A stretch of DNA of 64,000 bases from Caldicellulosiruptor saccharolyticus DSM 8903 (GTDB lineage: Bacteria > Bacillota > Thermoanaerobacteria > Caldicellulosiruptorales > Caldicellulosiruptoraceae), in assembly GCF_000016545.1 (NCBI RefSeq), contig NC_009437.1, forward strand, positions 411,501 to 475,500. The letters run 5' to 3'. This document shows, in pieces, positions 8,208 through 35,059 of this stretch. A program made the translations under genes and the position numbers. Position 1 is the first letter of the stretch; each line of letters opens with the position of its first letter. Under the pieces are notes generated by a model. It was not told the origin of the DNA. It saw nothing but the letters and a program-made list of their open reading frames with translations, and did not search any database.

Positions 8208-9608
8208 ATGACAAAATTGCTCAGGCGCAAAGAACTTCAAACTCTTTTACAACAAGCTGAAGATGAAAAGTTTAAATTAAAAAGAGAACTGACGGCGGCA
8301 GATTTAACTTTGTTAGGTATTGGAGCAACAGTCGGTGTAGGGATTTTTGTACTGCCCGGTGTAATGGCTGCTAAGGTGGCTGGTCCCGCAATAGTAGTTT
8401 CGTTTTTGTTATCAGCAATAGCATGTATATTTGCAGGGCTATGCTATGCAGAATTTGCTTCTTTAGCACCTGTTTCAGGAAGTGCATACACTTATTCTTA
8501 CGTAGCCTTAGGTGAAATATTTGCATGGATAATAGGATGGGATTTATTACTTGAATTTGGTGTTTCAATGAGTGCGGTTGCTGTTGGTTGGTCAGGGTAT
8601 GTTACAAATCTACTTTCAGATTTGGGAATACATCTACCGAAGATATTGACTAACGATATTGCTCATGGAGGAATAATAAATCTTCCGGCAATATTCATAA
8701 TAGCTTTGTTAGGATGGATTTTGACAAGAGGAATTAGAGAAAGTAGTAACTTTAGTAACATAATGGTATTTATTAAGCTGGCAGTGATTATTCTTTTCAT
8801 TGTTTTAGCTGCACCACATATAAAACCTCAAAATTGGACTCCATTTGCACCTTATGGGTGGAAGAATGTAATTACTGCAGCAGGTCTTGTCTTTTTTGCA
8901 TATGGTGGTTTTGATGCTGTCTCTACTGCCTCGGAAGAAACCAAAAATCCGCAGAGGAACATTCCTATTGGTCTTGTAGCTTCTTTGACAATAGTTGCTA
9001 CTTTATATGCTATTGTATGTCTTGTACTTACTGGTGTTGTAAACTATAAAAAACTTGATAATTCAGCTCCAGTGGCATATGTTTTATCGCTCATAGGGGT
9101 TAAATGGGGTAGCGTACTTGTTGCAATTGGTGCAGTTGTAGGCATTACAACAGTTATGATGGTAATGCTTCTTGGCACAACAAGAATTCTATTTTCTCTT
9201 TCAAGAGATGGTTTACTGCCGCCAGTATTTTCAAAAGTGCACAAGACAAGAAGGACTCCATATGTAGCCACGATTGCTGTTACCATAATTGGTATTCTTC
9301 TTTCAGGCTTTCTTCCAATCATGACTTTGGCAGAGCTCTGCAATATAGGAGCTTTGTTTGCCTTCATGTTAACATCGATTTCGGTATTAGTATTGAGAAT
9401 CAAAAGACCTGATATTAAAAGGCCTTTTAAAGTACCAGCTGTATATGTAATAGCACCATTGGCTGCTTTGATTAGTTTTGGCCTTATTGTAAGCCTCCCC
9501 AAAATAGCTATAATTAGATTTATTGTTTGGTTAGCAATAGGATTGATAATATATTTTAGCTATGGAATTAAGCATTCTGTTGTTCAAAACAGTAGGAATA
9601 ACAGTTGA
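8208..9608 (+). CDS. APC-family amino acid permease
   Basis: Integral membrane amino acid / polyamine / cation transporter of 466 aa with about twelve hydrophobic segments. The first membrane segment holds the family's substrate loop, LLGIGATVGVGIFVLPG, followed by SFLLSAIACIFAGLCYAEFA and the GSAYTYSYVALGE segment typical of the YfnA/CAT (cationic amino acid transporter) branch. FFAYGGFDAVSTASEETKNP is the other conserved block. GGAGGGG lies about ten bases before the ATG. A folded leader precedes it. It is followed in the same direction by a transglutaminase-like gene and a dipeptide epimerase gene, so it may import amino acids or small peptides handled by that set; the substrate cannot be told from sequence. 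Confidence 0.88.
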   Translation: MTKLLRRKELQTLLQQAEDEKFKLKRELTAADLTLLGIGATVGVGIFVLPGVMAAKVAGPAIVVSFLLSAIACIFAGLCYAEFASLAPVSGSAYTYSYVALGEIFAWIIGWDLLLEFGVSMSAVAVGWSGYVTNLLSDLGIHLPKILTNDIAHGGIINLPAIFIIALLGWILTRGIRESSNFSNIMVFIKLAVIILFIVLAAPHIKPQNWTPFAPYGWKNVITAAGLVFFAYGGFDAVSTASEETKNPQRNIPIGLVASLTIVATLYAIVCLVLTGVVNYKKLDNSAPVAYVLSLIGVKWGSVLVAIGAVVGITTVMMVMLLGTTRILFSLSRDGLLPPVFSKVHKTRRTPYVATIAVTIIGILLSGFLPIMTLAELCNIGALFAFMLTSISVLVLRIKRPDIKRPFKVPAVYVIAPLAALISFGLIVSLPKIAIIRFIVWLAIGLIIYFSYGIKHSVVQNSRNNS

Positions 9609-29645: not shown

Positions 29646-30827
29646 AATGGAGTAATATATCTATCTTTTAGAAAGCGATTTTTTTAACTCTAAATTAAAA
29701 ATACTAATCGATTCTTGGCATTTCAAGAGAGTAAAATGAACGTACTGAGGTATGCCTTATCCTATAGTCAAGATTTGAATTAAAAAAGACCAAGGAATAT
29801 TACACTATGTAAAAAACACTTACAGTTTCTTTTTTATACTTTTATTTCCATTTACAAGTTAAGTTAAATTAATACCTCATGGATTTATCGATCTAATTTT
29901 TCAAAAATTAATTTTGGATATTTATCCGACTTAACACCTTACTTAAAACAATGTTCTTCAATTTTATAAAGCTTTTCAATTTTTGTTTGTTCTCTTTTTT
30001 TGCTGTGCTTTTTTGTGGTATTCATTGTTATTTGTTAAAGCCAAGAACGATATTACTTAGCATAACTTGTGTATCAAGGAAGAATGAAAGATAACACTTT
30101 CTACTTGTAAAGGCATAACAAGACGTTTTTTCAAAAGATAACTTTATAGAGCTTGATTTTTAAACGAGAGTATACTAATGAATTATATTATAACTAAGCT
30201 TATTTAATGCTCTGTCAAATTTAGGTAATATGTAAGTATGGGTTTCAAAGTTGATCCTAAACAATAAATTTAAATTTTAGCTATTTTGGGGAGCGAAATA
30301 TATATTTTTCTAAATGTATAGAGGGAGGTGGACCATAGTTTCAACCATATTATTCAGTTACATCAAAGTAAGCACTTAGTTTTTTTGGTCTGCGCTTATA
30401 GACGGGTCTTTTTTTCTAATTCAATGGCTTTTGGAACTTTTTTATTCCTATTTCTTTTGATTAATTTTATGGATTTGACAACTTAAATGATATTATAATT
30501 ATTGAAGTAATTTTGAAAAATATTTAAAAATTAGCAATATTATATTTAGTTGATTAGAAGAAACATGAGAAGTGGTTTTACCAGTATTTTGTAAATAACT
30601 GAATTTTCATCTTTTTTTGAATATTAGTTCGTTAGGTTCGAAGATGAGTTTAGGGATTGAATACAGAATTTTTGCTGCTATCTTTGCAAGTAATTTCCTC
30701 GTCCATAAACCTTTTAGTTTCTGCTAATTCTTTCAAAACTGTTCTCATTTATATTTAGTTTATAGTAAAATTATCTCATGATTTTCATAATTAAACAATA
30801 AAATACTTCATTAACACAATTCTGCCA
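29646..30827. other. gene-poor, AT-rich intergenic region
   Basis: About 1.2 kb with no open frame supported by a ribosome binding site. Seen in it: an AATCGATT at about 29707 that matches the core of the LacI operator but not its flanks, a GGGAGGTGG at about 30323 without a usable start codon, a T-rich run near 30405, and a short minus-strand protein remnant at the right end. Composition is lower in G+C than the CO dehydrogenase genes that follow. It may be the eroded edge of the sugar island. Confidence 0.6.
30600..30748 (-). pseudogene. minus-strand gene remnant, unrecognised
   Basis: From ATG at 30748 one reads MRTVLKELAETKRFMDEEIT and then, after a one-base shift, AKIAAKILYSIPKLIFEP and NELIFKKR. 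The composition is protein-like and the frameshift suggests a decayed gene. No family was recognised and no ribosome binding site is clear. Confidence 0.25.
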
Positions 30828-30882
30828 TTGACACTTCAAGAAGTGTGATGTAAAATAAAAATGTACTAAATCAGTATACTTT
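30828..30882 (+). promoter_or_regulatory. rrf2 promoter with overlapping Rrf2-type operator
   Basis: Near-consensus sigma-A promoter: TTGACA at 30828-30833, a 17-bp spacer and TAAAAT at 30851-30856. Immediately downstream, over the start site, lies an imperfect 25-bp palindrome (30858-30882) with arms AAAATGTACTA and CAGTATACTTT. It matches the perfect palindrome in front of cooS, so the regulator probably represses itself. Confidence 0.75.
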
Positions 30883-30902
30883 AATTTGGCAAGGGTGAAT
30901 AA

Positions 30903-31316
30903 ATGAGACTTACGCAAGCATCCGACTATGCACTCAGAATAGTGCTTCACCTTTCAAAGAAAAAGGGAGTAGTAGTTGAGGCAGACACTATCTCAGAAGA
31001 AGAAAAGATTCCCAAAAGGTTTTTGTTAAAAATATGTAGAGACTTGATAAAGGCAGGAATTATAGAATCTGCACGGGGCAAAAATGGGGGTTATGTCCTT
31101 GCTAAAAATCCTGAAGACATAACAATGAAAGATGTGATACTGGCAGTAGAAGGTACCTTGGCTTTGAACAGGTGCCAGATAGACCCTTCTGCTTGTAGTA
31201 AAAGAGCTACTGGGTATTGCGCTGTGCACAAAGCTTTTTCTTCAGTGATGGAGATTGTCGCGAAGGAGTTTGAAAAGTATAACTTTGCTGAGCTTGCAAA
31301 AATGGATGGAAACTAA
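30903..31316 (+). CDS. Rrf2-family (IscR-like) regulator of the CO dehydrogenase locus
   Basis: 137-aa winged-helix regulator. MRLTQASDYALRIVLHLS and the recognition-helix part IPKRFLLKICRDLIKAGIIES with the wing ARGKNGGYVLAK are typical Rrf2. Three cysteines C91, C98 and C106 plus H109 match the pattern that holds a [2Fe-2S] cluster in IscR (C92, C98, C104, H107), so it probably senses cluster availability, redox state or a gas. AAGGGTGA precedes the ATG. The gene has its own promoter and its own terminator, and matching palindromes stand before it and before cooS, making it the likely local repressor of the cooS operon. Confidence 0.9.
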   Translation: MRLTQASDYALRIVLHLSKKKGVVVEADTISEEEKIPKRFLLKICRDLIKAGIIESARGKNGGYVLAKNPEDITMKDVILAVEGTLALNRCQIDPSACSKRATGYCAVHKAFSSVMEIVAKEFEKYNFAELAKMDGN

Positions 31317-31338
31317 TTTCGGTTTCCATCTTTATTTT
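31305..31338 (+). terminator. terminator between rrf2 and cooS
   Basis: GATGGAAAC (31305-31313, overlapping the end of rrf2) pairs with GTTTCCATC (31322-31330) and TTTATTTT follows. It separates the regulator transcript from the cooS operon. Confidence 0.75.
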
Positions 31339-31345
31339 GTAGACA

Positions 31346-31370
31346 AAAGTATACTAAAATAGTATACTTT
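31346..31370 (+). promoter_or_regulatory. perfect 25-bp Rrf2-type operator in front of cooS
   Basis: Arms AAAGTATACTA and TAGTATACTTT flank AAA, a perfect inverted repeat. A TAAAAT that could be the -10 element (31355-31360) lies inside it, so binding would block the promoter. The rrf2 copy differs by only a few bases in the left arm. Confidence 0.8.
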
Positions 31371-31414: not shown

Positions 31415-33298
31415 ATGGAGATTTGCACATTTTGTGAGACAGCTGATAAACGATTAGGGGAATTTATAAAAAGCAAAGAAGATTTGGAGACTTCTTTTAA
31501 CCGCAAACCACGACAAAGTGTAAAATGCGGGTTTGGTCTTCAGGGAATTTGTTGCAGGTTGTGTGCAAATGGACCGTGTAGGATTACGCCAACTCAAAAA
31601 AGAGGGGTTTGCGGAGCAGATGCAGATACAATTGTTGCGAGAAATTTTCTAAGAGCAGTTGCAGCAGGAGCTGGCTGTTATTTGCACGTGGTAGAAAATG
31701 TTGCCCATAATCTTAAAAAGATGGCACAAGATCAAATAGATGTACCATTTAAAGGTCAAAAGACGCTCCATGCACTTGCAGATAAACTTGGTATCCATGG
31801 ACAATATGATAGAGAAATAGCTTTGCAACTTGCTGAAAAGGTATTATCTGACCTTTACAAACCCAGATGGCAGAAAATGGAACTGGTAAAGTACATGGCA
31901 CCAGCCATGAGGTATAAAAAGTGGAGCGAACTGGGGATTTTGCCTGGCGGTGCAAAATCAGAGGTGTTCGATGCGGTAGTAAAAACAAGTACGAACCTTT
32001 CAAGTGATCCTGTCGATATGCTCATGCATGTTTTAAAACTGGGTATAGCCACAGGACTTTATGGGCTGGCACTTACAAACAAACTTAACGATATCATCAT
32101 GGGAGAGCCTGTGTTAAGGTCAGCGCCTGTAGGTTTCAGGGTAATAGACCCTGATTACATAAACATAATGCCTACAGGACATCAACAGTCACTTTTTTGG
32201 GCTTTGCTAAAGAGGTTAAATGATGAAGATGTAAAAAAGATGGCTCAAGACGTTGGTGCTAAGGGATTCAGAATAATAGGGTGTACATGCGTGGGTCAGG
32301 ATTTTCAGTTAAGAGGTGAGCATGCAAAGGATGTGTATGCAGGTCACGTAGGCAATAATTTCACAAGTGAAGCTGTACTGGCAACAGGTGCTATAGACCT
32401 TGTCGTATCTGAGTTCAATTGTACTATACCTGGTCTTGAAACAGTAGCTGACAGGTATATGGTAAGACAAATTTGCATTGACGATGTGGCTAAAAAAGCT
32501 AACGCAGATCTTGTGCAATATAGTCCTGAAGAAGCCATGAAGATTGCAGACAGGATTTTAAAAGAAGCTGTGGATAGCTACAAACTTAGAAGAGGTAAGG
32601 TAAATATAGACATACCTTATGACCACGGTTATGAGAGTGCACTCACAGGAATAAGTGAAGGATCTCTTAAAGAATTTTTAGGTGGAAGCTATAAACCTCT
32701 TATTGATCTTATAGCTTCGGGCAGAATCAAAGGCATAGCAGCTATTGTTGGTTGTTCCAATCTTACCTCTATAGGCCATGATATTTTTACTGTAGAACTG
32801 ACCAAAGAATTAATAAAACGAGATATACTGGTACTGTCTGCAGGGTGCACAAGTGGGGGACTTGAAAACTGTGGTCTTATGTCAAAAGGAGCTGAAGAGC
32901 TGGCAGGAGACAAATTAAAAGAGGTGTGCAGAGAGCTTAACATACCACCTGTGCTAAACTTTGGTCCATGCCTTGCCATAGGCAGGCTTGAGATAGTGGC
33001 AGCAGAACTTGCAGAGATTCTCAACGTGGATATTCCACAGCTGCCACTGGTACTTTCTGCACCTCAATGGTTAGAAGAGCAGGCTTTGGCTGATGGTGCG
33101 TTTGGGCTGGCGCTTGGATTGCCTTTACATCTTTCAATTCCTCCTTTTATAACAGGAAGCAAGCTGGTGACAGAGATTTTGACAGAAAAGTTGTCAGACA
33201 TAACTGGAGGAAGGCTGATTATAAATAATGATGTAAAGTCTTCTGCTGATGAGCTTGAAAGTATCATACTTCAGCGCAGAAAAGATATGGGTATCTAA
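31415..33298 (+). CDS. cooS: divergent Ni-Fe carbon monoxide dehydrogenase catalytic subunit (CooS-like)
   Basis: 627-aa CooS scaffold. D- and B-cluster cysteines are all present: C38, C46, C47, C50, C55 and C66. Every C-cluster ligand known from Carboxydothermus CODH-II has a counterpart: His in PTGHQQ (H261), Cys in GCTCVG (C295), EFNCTIP (C333), VGCSNL (C446), SAGCTS (C476) and FGPCLA (C526). The second-shell residues differ. The His ladder H93/H96/H99/H102 reads Y89/V92/N95/H98, the base K563 (HEKAVAIG) is Gln in EEQALADG, and D219 appears to be Gly. CO oxidation by the usual route is therefore uncertain; another C1 or redox reaction is possible. GGGAGG precedes ATG 31415. First gene of an operon with a CooF-like ferredoxin and an NAD oxidoreductase. 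Confidence 0.88.
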   Translation: MEICTFCETADKRLGEFIKSKEDLETSFNRKPRQSVKCGFGLQGICCRLCANGPCRITPTQKRGVCGADADTIVARNFLRAVAAGAGCYLHVVENVAHNLKKMAQDQIDVPFKGQKTLHALADKLGIHGQYDREIALQLAEKVLSDLYKPRWQKMELVKYMAPAMRYKKWSELGILPGGAKSEVFDAVVKTSTNLSSDPVDMLMHVLKLGIATGLYGLALTNKLNDIIMGEPVLRSAPVGFRVIDPDYINIMPTGHQQSLFWALLKRLNDEDVKKMAQDVGAKGFRIIGCTCVGQDFQLRGEHAKDVYAGHVGNNFTSEAVLATGAIDLVVSEFNCTIPGLETVADRYMVRQICIDDVAKKANADLVQYSPEEAMKIADRILKEAVDSYKLRRGKVNIDIPYDHGYESALTGISEGSLKEFLGGSYKPLIDLIASGRIKGIAAIVGCSNLTSIGHDIFTVELTKELIKRDILVLSAGCTSGGLENCGLMSKGAEELAGDKLKEVCRELNIPPVLNFGPCLAIGRLEIVAAELAEILNVDIPQLPLVLSAPQWLEEQALADGAFGLALGLPLHLSIPPFITGSKLVTEILTEKLSDITGGRLIINNDVKSSADELESIILQRRKDMGI

Positions 33299-33317: not shown

Positions 33318-33758
33318 ATGAAGAGGATATATATAGAACCAACAGCATGTACAGGATGTATGAATTGCATCCTGGCGTGTATAGCTCACCATAAAGGTGT
33401 GCAATCAGTACTTGAGATAGACTTCTCAGACAATGATTTAGAATTTGCAAATAATGTAGTCTTGAACAACGAAGGGAAGATTGTCCCTATTTTCTGCCGA
33501 CATTGTGACCAACCAGAATGTGTTGCAGCTTGTATGTCTGGTGCGCTGACAAAAGACGAGACAACAGGATACGTAATTTGCAACCAGAGCTGGTGTGCAG
33601 GATGTTTTATGTGCGTTATGTCATGCCCTTATGGCATGATAAAACCTAACAAAAGTGGTGATGTTGCTATAAAATGTGATATGTGCCTGGACAGAGAAAT
33701 ACCTGCGTGTGTCCAAAGCTGCCCTGTCCAGGCTATTTCCCTTATTGATGTTGATTAA
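33318..33758 (+). CDS. cooF: CooF-like polyferredoxin, four [4Fe-4S] clusters
   Basis: 146-aa electron carrier with four cysteine groups: CTGCMNCILAC at the N-terminus, CRHCDQPECVAAC, CAGCFMCVMSCP and CDMCLDREIPACVQSCP. This is the arrangement of CooF, HycB and DmsB-type subunits. It should carry electrons between CooS and the FAD/NAD oxidoreductase encoded next. AGAGGTG lies nine bases before the ATG, and the cooS stop codon is 19 bases upstream, so they are co-transcribed. No hydrogenase or corrinoid acetyl-CoA synthase genes are near, which argues against an energy-converting hydrogenase or Wood-Ljungdahl role at this locus. Confidence 0.9.
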   Translation: MKRIYIEPTACTGCMNCILACIAHHKGVQSVLEIDFSDNDLEFANNVVLNNEGKIVPIFCRHCDQPECVAACMSGALTKDETTGYVICNQSWCAGCFMCVMSCPYGMIKPNKSGDVAIKCDMCLDREIPACVQSCPVQAISLIDVD

Positions 33759-33775: not shown

Positions 33776-35059
33776 ATGAAATATTTGATTATAGGTGCCA
33801 GTGCTGCAGGACTAAGTTGCGCAAAGACACTCAGACGACTTGATAACAATGGAGAAATTGTTGTAATTTCAAAAGATGATATGGTATATTCCCGGTGTAT
33901 GCTTCATTATTTCATAAGTGACGACAGACCTTTGGACAAGATGAGGTTTGTGGAAGAGGATTTTTTCGATAAAAACAAAATAAAATGGATAAGGAATACC
34001 ACTGTGATGGAAATTAGACCTTTCAACAAAAGCGTTGTCACTTCTGATGGCGCTGAACATACATATGATAAACTACTTATAGCTACCGGCGCTACTCCTG
34101 TAATTCCTTCTATAGAAGGCTTAGCAGAGGGTATAGAAAAGAGAAAAGATATATTTACCTTACGAGATATAGGTGATGCTATAAAGATTAAAAAAGCGGC
34201 TAAAACAAGTAGGCAGGCTGTAGTCATTGGCGGTGGACTAATAGGACTGGATGTTGCGGTGAGCCTTAACAAGCAGGGAGTCAAGGTAACCGTAATAGAG
34301 GTGAAAGACCATATACTACCTCAGCAATTGGACAAGACAGCAGCGCAAAGGTACGAGAGGATGTTTAAAGACAATGGAATAGATATCATTACTGGACAGT
34401 CTGTTTCAAATGTAATCTACGGGTTATCAGGGAAGGTTAAAGGTGTGACTTTATCAGATGGAAGTTTTGTTTTTGCCGATATGATTGTAGTGGCAGTTGG
34501 GGTAAAACCTTCTTTTCCAAGAATAGATAAATGTCATCTGAAAATTGAAAATGGAATTATTGTAGATCAATACCAGAGGACTTCTATACAAGACATTTAT
34601 GCTGCTGGTGATGTATGTCAATCGTATGAGCTCTTGACACAAAGACATATATTAACACCTATATGGCCTTCGGCTGTAAAACAGGGGCAAACAGCAGCAT
34701 ATAATATGGCAGGAATTGATAGGCATTTAATAGACAATTTTGGTTTTAAAAATTCAATGAAGTTTTTTGGCTTGAGTACAATAAGTTATGGATATGTAGA
34801 GCCACCCGATGACAGCTATAATGTAGCAATTTGCAGTGGACCGAACTATTATTATAAAGTGGTCTATAAAGAAAATGTCTTGTACGGTGCTATAATACAA
34901 GGAGATATATCAGGAGCAGGTGTTATTGGTAAACTTATCCAAGACAAGTATAATCTTTCTAATAAGTTGGTGAGAAATGACTGGAATAATGTCTTTAGGT
35001 TGACGTATGGAGATTTTTTCAAGCAAAATCAGGATGGAACGTTTGAATTTGCTTGTTGA
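33776..35059 (+). CDS. FAD-dependent NAD(P)H oxidoreductase of the CODH operon
   Basis: 427-aa flavoprotein of the pyridine nucleotide-disulfide class (Pyr_redox_2). FAD-binding GASAAGLSCA at the N-terminus, ATGATP at about 105, NAD-binding GGGLIGLDVA at about 148-157 and the second FAD contact IYAAGDVCQ at about 282-290. A cysteine near position 42 (YSRCMLHYF) lies where CoA-disulfide reductases and NADH oxidases carry a redox cysteine. Sitting 17 bases after cooF, it most likely passes electrons from the ferredoxin to NAD(P)+ (the CODH/FNOR type of operon). GAGGGGAG precedes the ATG and a strong terminator follows the gene. Confidence 0.87.
   Translation: MKYLIIGASAAGLSCAKTLRRLDNNGEIVVISKDDMVYSRCMLHYFISDDRPLDKMRFVEEDFFDKNKIKWIRNTTVMEIRPFNKSVVTSDGAEHTYDKLLIATGATPVIPSIEGLAEGIEKRKDIFTLRDIGDAIKIKKAAKTSRQAVVIGGGLIGLDVAVSLNKQGVKVTVIEVKDHILPQQLDKTAAQRYERMFKDNGIDIITGQSVSNVIYGLSGKVKGVTLSDGSFVFADMIVVAVGVKPSFPRIDKCHLKIENGIIVDQYQRTSIQDIYAAGDVCQSYELLTQRHILTPIWPSAVKQGQTAAYNMAGIDRHLIDNFGFKNSMKFFGLSTISYGYVEPPDDSYNVAICSGPNYYYKVVYKENVLYGAIIQGDISGAGVIGKLIQDKYNLSNKLVRNDWNNVFRLTYGDFFKQNQDGTFEFAC

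Follow-up and report, generated by a model that had tools for sequence, protein, structure and literature searches.

What does a CO dehydrogenase (CODH) catalyse when its metal ligands are all in place and the residues credited with proton transfer and CO2 polarisation are replaced? The sole CODH gene of the Caldicellulosiruptor saccharolyticus DSM 8903 genome, a single contig of 2,970,275 bases, raises this question. It lies in the 64,000-nucleotide stretch analysed here (the window). The reading frame is full-length, has no internal stop and scores 802.6 bits against the TIGR01702 profile (cut-off 478). Together with the genes of a CooF-like electron carrier and an FAD/NAD(P) oxidoreductase (FNOR), it forms one tight cluster after an Rrf2-family regulator gene (Table 1). 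CooF and FNOR genes are found downstream of CODH in 58 and 55, respectively, of 85 loci of clade C, to which the window CODH is assigned below.

Table 1 Features of the CODH locus (window positions; CODH-II residues in brackets)
Feature	Position	Strand	Evidence or remark
Promoter-like TTGACA-17-TAAAAT ahead of Rrf2 gene	30828..30856	+	11/12 consensus positions; consensus match only
Candidate operator copy 1, ATGTACTAAATCAGTATAC	30861..30879	.	Just downstream of Rrf2 promoter -10
Rrf2-family regulator, 137 aa	30903..31316	+	PF02082 116 bits, TIGR00738 112 bits
Terminator-like hairpin between Rrf2 and CODH	31304..31331	+	11 pairs, T-rich tail; pattern match only
Promoter-like TAGACA-17-TATACT ahead of CODH	31340..31368	+	10/12 positions; consensus match only
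Candidate operator copy 2, 19-bp perfect dyad GTATACTAAAATAGTATAC	31349..31367	.	Over -10 of CODH promoter
Clade C (group C-1) CODH catalytic subunit, 627 aa	31415..33298	+	TIGR01702, tree, alignments
N-terminal C4-x-x-C7 motif, group C-1 feature	31424..31435	+	Sequence; Table 2 of Inoue et al. 2019
Type II D-cluster cysteines C38 and C46, then B-cluster C47	31526..31552	+	Alignment
Tyr89 at H93 position	31679..31681	+	Alignment
Thr213 at D219 position	32051..32053	+	Alignment
C-cluster ligand His256 (H261)	32180..32182	+	Alignment
C-cluster ligand Cys292 (C295; Glu in CooS-V)	32288..32290	+	Alignment
C-cluster ligand Cys519 (C526)	32969..32971	+	Alignment; C336, C447, C478 kept too
E554 (H561), Q556 (K563), D560 (I567), clade C face of substrate pocket	33074..33094	+	Alignment
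CooF-like 4Fe-4S electron carrier, 146 aa, 17 Cys	33318..33758	+	PF13247 and related Fer4 domains
FNOR (FAD/NAD(P) oxidoreductase), 427 aa	33776..35059	+	PF07992 211 bits, plus Rubredoxin_C

Active site and clade of the window CODH

The protein was aligned with MAFFT to CODH-II (1su6 numbering), CODH-IV, DvCODH, 6t7j, CooS-V, Thermoanaerobacter kivui AcsA and 87 relatives, the first five sequences being taken from PDB searches. All B-, C- and D-cluster ligands are kept, as a preliminary description of this DNA had claimed. The D-cluster cysteines C39 and C47 of CODH-II correspond to C38 and C46, the B-cluster cysteines C48, C51, C56 and C70 to C47, C50, C55 and C66, and the C-cluster ligands H261, C295, C333, C446, C476 and C526 to H256, C292, C336, C447, C478 and C519. 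The D-cluster is of type II, C-(X)7-13-CC, in the form C38-X7-C46-C47. The ladder H93/H96/H99/H102 reads Y89/V92/N95/H98 and K563 is Q556, both in agreement with the preliminary description, and no conserved His or Lys is aligned with the altered positions. However, D219, which had been read as Gly, aligns with T213. Immediately behind D219 the CODH-II sequence is one residue shorter, and an ungapped reading from the right therefore wrongly places G214 at this position. This position is Asp in the other active references and Thr in all clade C proteins. Five changes had been missed: H561 to E554, I567 to D560, C294 to T291, H522 to N515 and N447 to S448. Ladder positions 99 and 102 carry little weight, since active enzymes vary there too, CODH-IV, DvCODH and 6t7j having D99/E102. 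PDB titles include H93, K563 and I567 variants of CODH-II.

The replaced residues characterise a whole clade. In a second alignment, Y93, T219, E561 and Q563 occur in 88/88 clade C sequences and D567 in 87/88, while the C295 equivalent is kept in all 88. E/F enzymes have H93, D219, K563 and I567 in 15/15 cases. The 24 clade D proteins all have Tyr at 93 and Glu at the C295 position, with mostly T at 219, then E, K and D at 561, 563 and 567. The clade C signature is invariant across phyla, and its constancy in 88 sequences rules out misalignment or sequencing error as the source of the odd residues. On a maximum-likelihood tree, the window CODH, T. kivui CooS and 25 further clade C sequences form one branch (SH-aLRT 100), which includes the C. 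ljungdahlii CooS1-type protein and is separate from the E/F and clade D references, including CooS-V. At least 208 relatives were found in one scan, Clostridioides difficile among them. Clade C CODHs with 63-65% identity also occur in MAG contigs labelled Methanosarcinales, Gastranaerophilales and Deltaproteobacteria, by transfer or binning error.

In Inoue et al. 2019 (PMC6344411), all clade C enzymes are described as having complete C-cluster residues, with Tyr/Gln replacing the acid-base His/Lys. Group C-1 adds a motif with two to four cysteines at the N-terminus, and the C-1/C-2 context comprises FNOR, CooF (COG0437) and an NsrR/IscR-like regulator. The window CODH matches this account of C-1 in its ligands, Tyr/Gln pair, type II D-cluster and N-terminal Cys motif, and its locus in the FNOR, CooF and IscR/NsrR-like regulator context. 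With C4xxC7, Rrf2, CooF, FNOR and the clade C residues all present, it is thus an ordinary representative of a group already described: as judged from sequence, an enzyme of the Ni-CODH family, clade C, group C-1, in the operon typical for it. The preliminary description was right that the site is unlike those of CODH-II and CooS-V, but the variant is not peculiar to this protein, being the clade C signature published in 2019 (PMC6344411). A variant special to the source organism is ruled out likewise, the signature being common to clade C. The passages of that survey consulted here do not describe the operator reported below, E561, D567 and T219, or the genome-wide absence of CooC.

CODH-II (clade F; 33.3% identity) has its scaffold and all metal ligands in common with the window CODH, whereas its H93, D219, K563 and I567 are all replaced there (Y, T, Q, D). 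These four canonical E/F residues and a genomic CooC are missing from the window CODH and its genome. CooS-V of Carboxydothermus (clade D-1; 34.7% identity) resembles it in having Tyr at H93, Glu at H561 and Asp at I567. In contrast, and in line with the earlier claim that the two variants differ, CooS-V has Glu in place of C295, a type III D-cluster and a retained Lys563. A CooS-V type is therefore ruled out by C292, Q556 and the type II D-cluster. CooS-V has no CO activity, and the Cys-to-Glu exchange has been described as the main change behind its hybrid cluster. Its Glu556, a ligand of Fe3, is the counterpart of Glu494 in the hybrid cluster protein (HCP). E554 of the window CODH aligns with this residue, so that clade C has, besides all CODH ligands, an HCP-type Glu whose contact with the cluster is putative. 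The placement of E554 at the position of the cluster-ligating Glu of CooS-V and HCP is added here. The Glu494 equivalent is the only one shared with HCP, K496 being Gln, and the TIGR01703 (HCP) score is 22.9 bits against a cut-off of 360.8. The AlphaFold2 model (pLDDT 93.5, pTM 0.93) has CooS-V as its nearest solved fold (TM 0.95, rmsd 1.9), followed by 6t7j and DvCODH; for CODH-II the TM is 0.92.

Predicted regulation and distribution of the operon

The Rrf2 protein contains Cx6Cx7C cluster-type cysteines, a motif kept in nearly all Rrf2 neighbours of clade C CODHs. Operator copy 2 is the only zero-mismatch site in the 2.97-Mb genome, and the expected number of matches in the window is 0.04 if one mismatch is permitted. 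Copy 1 has one mismatch to GTRTACYNNNNNRGTAYAC and reads GTGTACTAAATCAGTATAC in sister genomes. Of the genomes searched, five of Caldicellulosiruptor and two related ones carry the operon or a remnant of it; each has at most two GTRTACYNNNNNRGTAYAC sites, all at the Rrf2-CODH locus. No site is present in an operon-less sister genome. Using a consensus built from the Caldicellulosiruptor sites and a threshold of at least 12/16 matching positions near the CODH start, a match was found in 40/50 clade C loci with an adjacent Rrf2 gene, most of them far outside the genus, versus 6/37 without (Fisher p 4e-9). From these patterns, we infer that Rrf2 would be a dedicated Fe-S-sensing repressor acting on the predicted operators of this operon. 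What is added here is the palindromic operator, confined in Caldicellulosiruptor to this operon and recurring with Rrf2 across clade C.

A full CODH gene is present in 4/12 Caldicellulosiruptor genomes, and the window CODH is 97-98% identical to the proteins of two sister species. In one sister (G003:C1:412000-431000, around 8560-9250), most of Rrf2, the operator and the last 74 CODH codons are kept and CooF and FNOR are gone. In another (G004, 8706-8961), CooF and FNOR are missing and a MarR gene directly follows the intact CODH gene. Rrf2-CODH pairs without CooF and FNOR are found in many Clostridium loci too. The CODH gene of Clostridium sp. OS1-26 (G451:C1:3898975-3900836; complete chromosome) is split over two frames, by frameshift or sequencing error. 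Upstream of the Rrf2 gene, 1.26 kb of AT-rich DNA (29646-30902) contains no ORF of at least 80 aa and no Rfam match; in some sister species a dipeptide-epimerase-like gene is found directly upstream instead. Rfam and tRNA scans of the whole 64-kb window gave no matches. The FNOR has an R-C-M-L-H stretch (33896-33907, Cys41 region), also present in C. ljungdahlii, near what we take to be the redox-cysteine position of NADH oxidase/CoA-disulfide reductase.

Maturation and CO activity in clade C

No CooC was found in the C. saccharolyticus genome, where the best match (29 bits) covers the P-loop only. Nickel handling is represented by HypB and a permease of the CbiM/NikM type. Among 58 clade C genomes searched, 25 have no CooC. 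These are the 16 genomes with no CODH other than clade C and nine that have only clade D or B CODHs besides; one further genome (G433), with a CooC fragment only, was left out of the count. CooC is present in 32/58. In 31 of these a canonical His/Lys/Ile CODH exists and the best CooC match lies beside it. In the remaining one, Heliophilum fasciatum, the CooC-like gene (40% identity) neighbours a clade B-like CODH with Asp at C333 (G458:C11:32690-35543). Five sole-clade-C genomes, CooC-less too and one of them a complete chromosome (G448), have no HypB or UreG over cut-off. CbiM, which serves cobalt too, has matches in most sole-clade-C genomes checked, not in two. Hence, either nickel enters clade C enzymes without CooC or some members are nickel-free. 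CooC is not an absolute criterion, as CODH-II and CODH-IV mature in E. coli at high Ni without it. CooC accompanies clades A, E and F in operon-level surveys, and C. acetobutylicum is named in a review as a CODH genome without cooC; the genome-wide count given here extends these data for clade C.

The nearest measured relative is T. kivui CooS (TkCODH-I; 53% identity), identified from a published primer matching the gene start. It has the same Tyr/Thr/Glu/Gln/Asp set, all ligands and an adjacent CooF gene. It differs in forming a deep sister branch with no Rrf2 or FNOR gene beside it, in lacking the N-terminal Cys motif, in having His at the H96 position and in its host, which possesses CooC and CODH/ACS. 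Purified His-CooSF1 (CooS with CooF1) shows 13.9 U/mg CO:MV (methyl viologen) and 0.5 U/mg CO:Fd, as compared with 213.9 and 111.5 U/mg for AcsAB (PMC8683389). CooS is thus active, about 15-fold slower than AcsAB of the same organism. Contamination by AcsAB is ruled out by the MV/Fd ratio: the 0.5 U/mg Fd activity limits AcsAB to at most 0.45%, which accounts for about 1 U/mg of the MV activity. In extracts of CO-grown cells, deletion of cooS brings the activity down from 178.6 to 14.9 U/mg (~92% lost), and growth on CO needs CooS (PMC8683389). An eLife survey cautions that this CooS may stem from a CO-adapted strain. Since an enzyme with the same five residues oxidises CO, the clade C signature does not, on available evidence, abolish CO chemistry. 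A slow or non-canonical activity of the window CODH is possible.

Closer in gene order is the CooS1 operon of C. ljungdahlii and C. autoethanogenum (64.5% identity), in which CODH, CooF and FNOR follow each other as in the window; the C. autoethanogenum cooS1 locus has the same order as that of C. ljungdahlii. These hosts, unlike C. saccharolyticus, are acetogens with CODH/ACS and CooC, and no adjacent Rrf2 gene was found. Inactivation of cooS1 in C. autoethanogenum altered growth on CO and on H2/CO2, the latter becoming faster. An acsA mutant with intact cooS1 did not oxidise CO and produced 2.03 mmol CO. For C. acetobutylicum CA_C0116, a review gives a preliminary report of a functional CODH without CooC (PMC6006190); Inoue et al. 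2019 (PMC6344411) place the CODH of this species in C-1. In the literature we found neither a clade C enzyme of the Rrf2/CooF/FNOR type that had been purified nor a report of the Ni content of any clade C enzyme.

Possible roles of the enzyme

The reading that we favour, with a probability of about 0.6, is an inducible, CooC-independent CODH that would pass electrons via CooF to FNOR and NAD(P). Damage to or loss of the Rrf2 cluster under oxidative, nitrosative or Fe-S stress would lift repression. The enzyme would then interconvert CO and CO2 at a C-cluster whose assembly would need no CooC, and electrons would travel from the C- through the B- and D-clusters to CooF and FNOR, where NAD(P)+ would be reduced. 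Tyr89 and the carboxylates of E554 and D560 may stand in for H93, D219 and K563 in proton transfer and hydrogen bonding, a second-shell replacement that probably costs rate. An auxiliary redox or detoxification module is the likely role, rather than autotrophic CO metabolism. In favour of this reading are the tree and the signature, the CO activity of T. kivui CooS and the preliminary report on CA_C0116, the growth effects of cooS1 inactivation, the operator confined to this operon, and the absence of CooC from a genome that has nickel-handling genes. Weighing against it are the deep position of T. kivui CooS and its possible origin from a CO-adapted strain, the acsA mutant that kept cooS1 yet did not oxidise CO, the five sole-clade-C genomes with neither CooC nor HypB/UreG over cut-off, and a predicted fold nearest to CooS-V.

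The same genes could also encode a nickel-free hybrid-cluster enzyme, in which the pocket with HCP-type E554, Tyr89 and Asp560 would hold an Fe/S(/O) cluster and hydroxylamine, NO or peroxide would be reduced by NAD(P)H via FNOR and CooF, as in the NsrR-Hcp-Hcr stress operon. We consider this unlikely, although several observations fit it: the alignment of E554 with Glu556 of CooS-V (Glu494 of HCP), the residues Y93, E561 and D567 common to clades C and D, the 25/58 clade C genomes without CooC (five sole-clade-C ones also without HypB/UreG over cut-off), a predicted model closer to CooS-V than to CODH-II (TM 0.95 vs 0.92), and the resemblance of Fe-S Rrf2 control and a reductase partner to hcp operons. 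Against it, C295, whose exchange for Glu underlies the CooS-V hybrid cluster, is kept in 88/88 sequences, HCP K496 is Gln, and the identities to CooS-V and CODH-II (34.7 and 33.3%) are equally low. Moreover, T. kivui CooS oxidises CO with the same residues (PMC8683389), and CA_C0116 is preliminarily reported to function as a CODH without CooC (PMC6006190).

In another reading, which we judge improbable, the CO/CO2 chemistry would serve as an electron sink, forming CO at the expense of NAD(P)H or ferredoxin. NAD(P)H-driven CO2 reduction is thermodynamically very unfavourable. The CO made by the C. autoethanogenum acsA mutant (2.03 mmol) and the faster growth of the cooS1 mutant on H2/CO2 would agree with a CO2 reductase, but this CO release was not traced to cooS1, and T. 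kivui CooS is required for growth on CO (PMC8683389). Even less probable is a decaying or sensory relic without catalytic function. The patchiness in the genus, with the full gene in 4/12 genomes, one 74-residue tail and one CODH without CooF and FNOR, points that way, whereas the open frame, the complete ligands, the kept operators, the 97-98% identity with two sister species and a signature invariant across phyla argue for a maintained protein.

Clade C is widespread, and the one purified member that we found is atypical of it. Two questions become testable through the comparison: whether CO chemistry can proceed without the His/Lys/Asp set credited with proton transfer and CO2 polarisation, and how a C-cluster forms in organisms without CooC. 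A more speculative and rather doubtful proposal is that clade C enzymes of the Rrf2/CooF/FNOR type hold a third kind of cluster, with the full CODH ligands plus E554, made without CooC and possibly without nickel, with CO activity retained in T. kivui CooS. If this were true, these enzymes would act as stress reductases linked to NAD(P)H or would be switchable by redox state.
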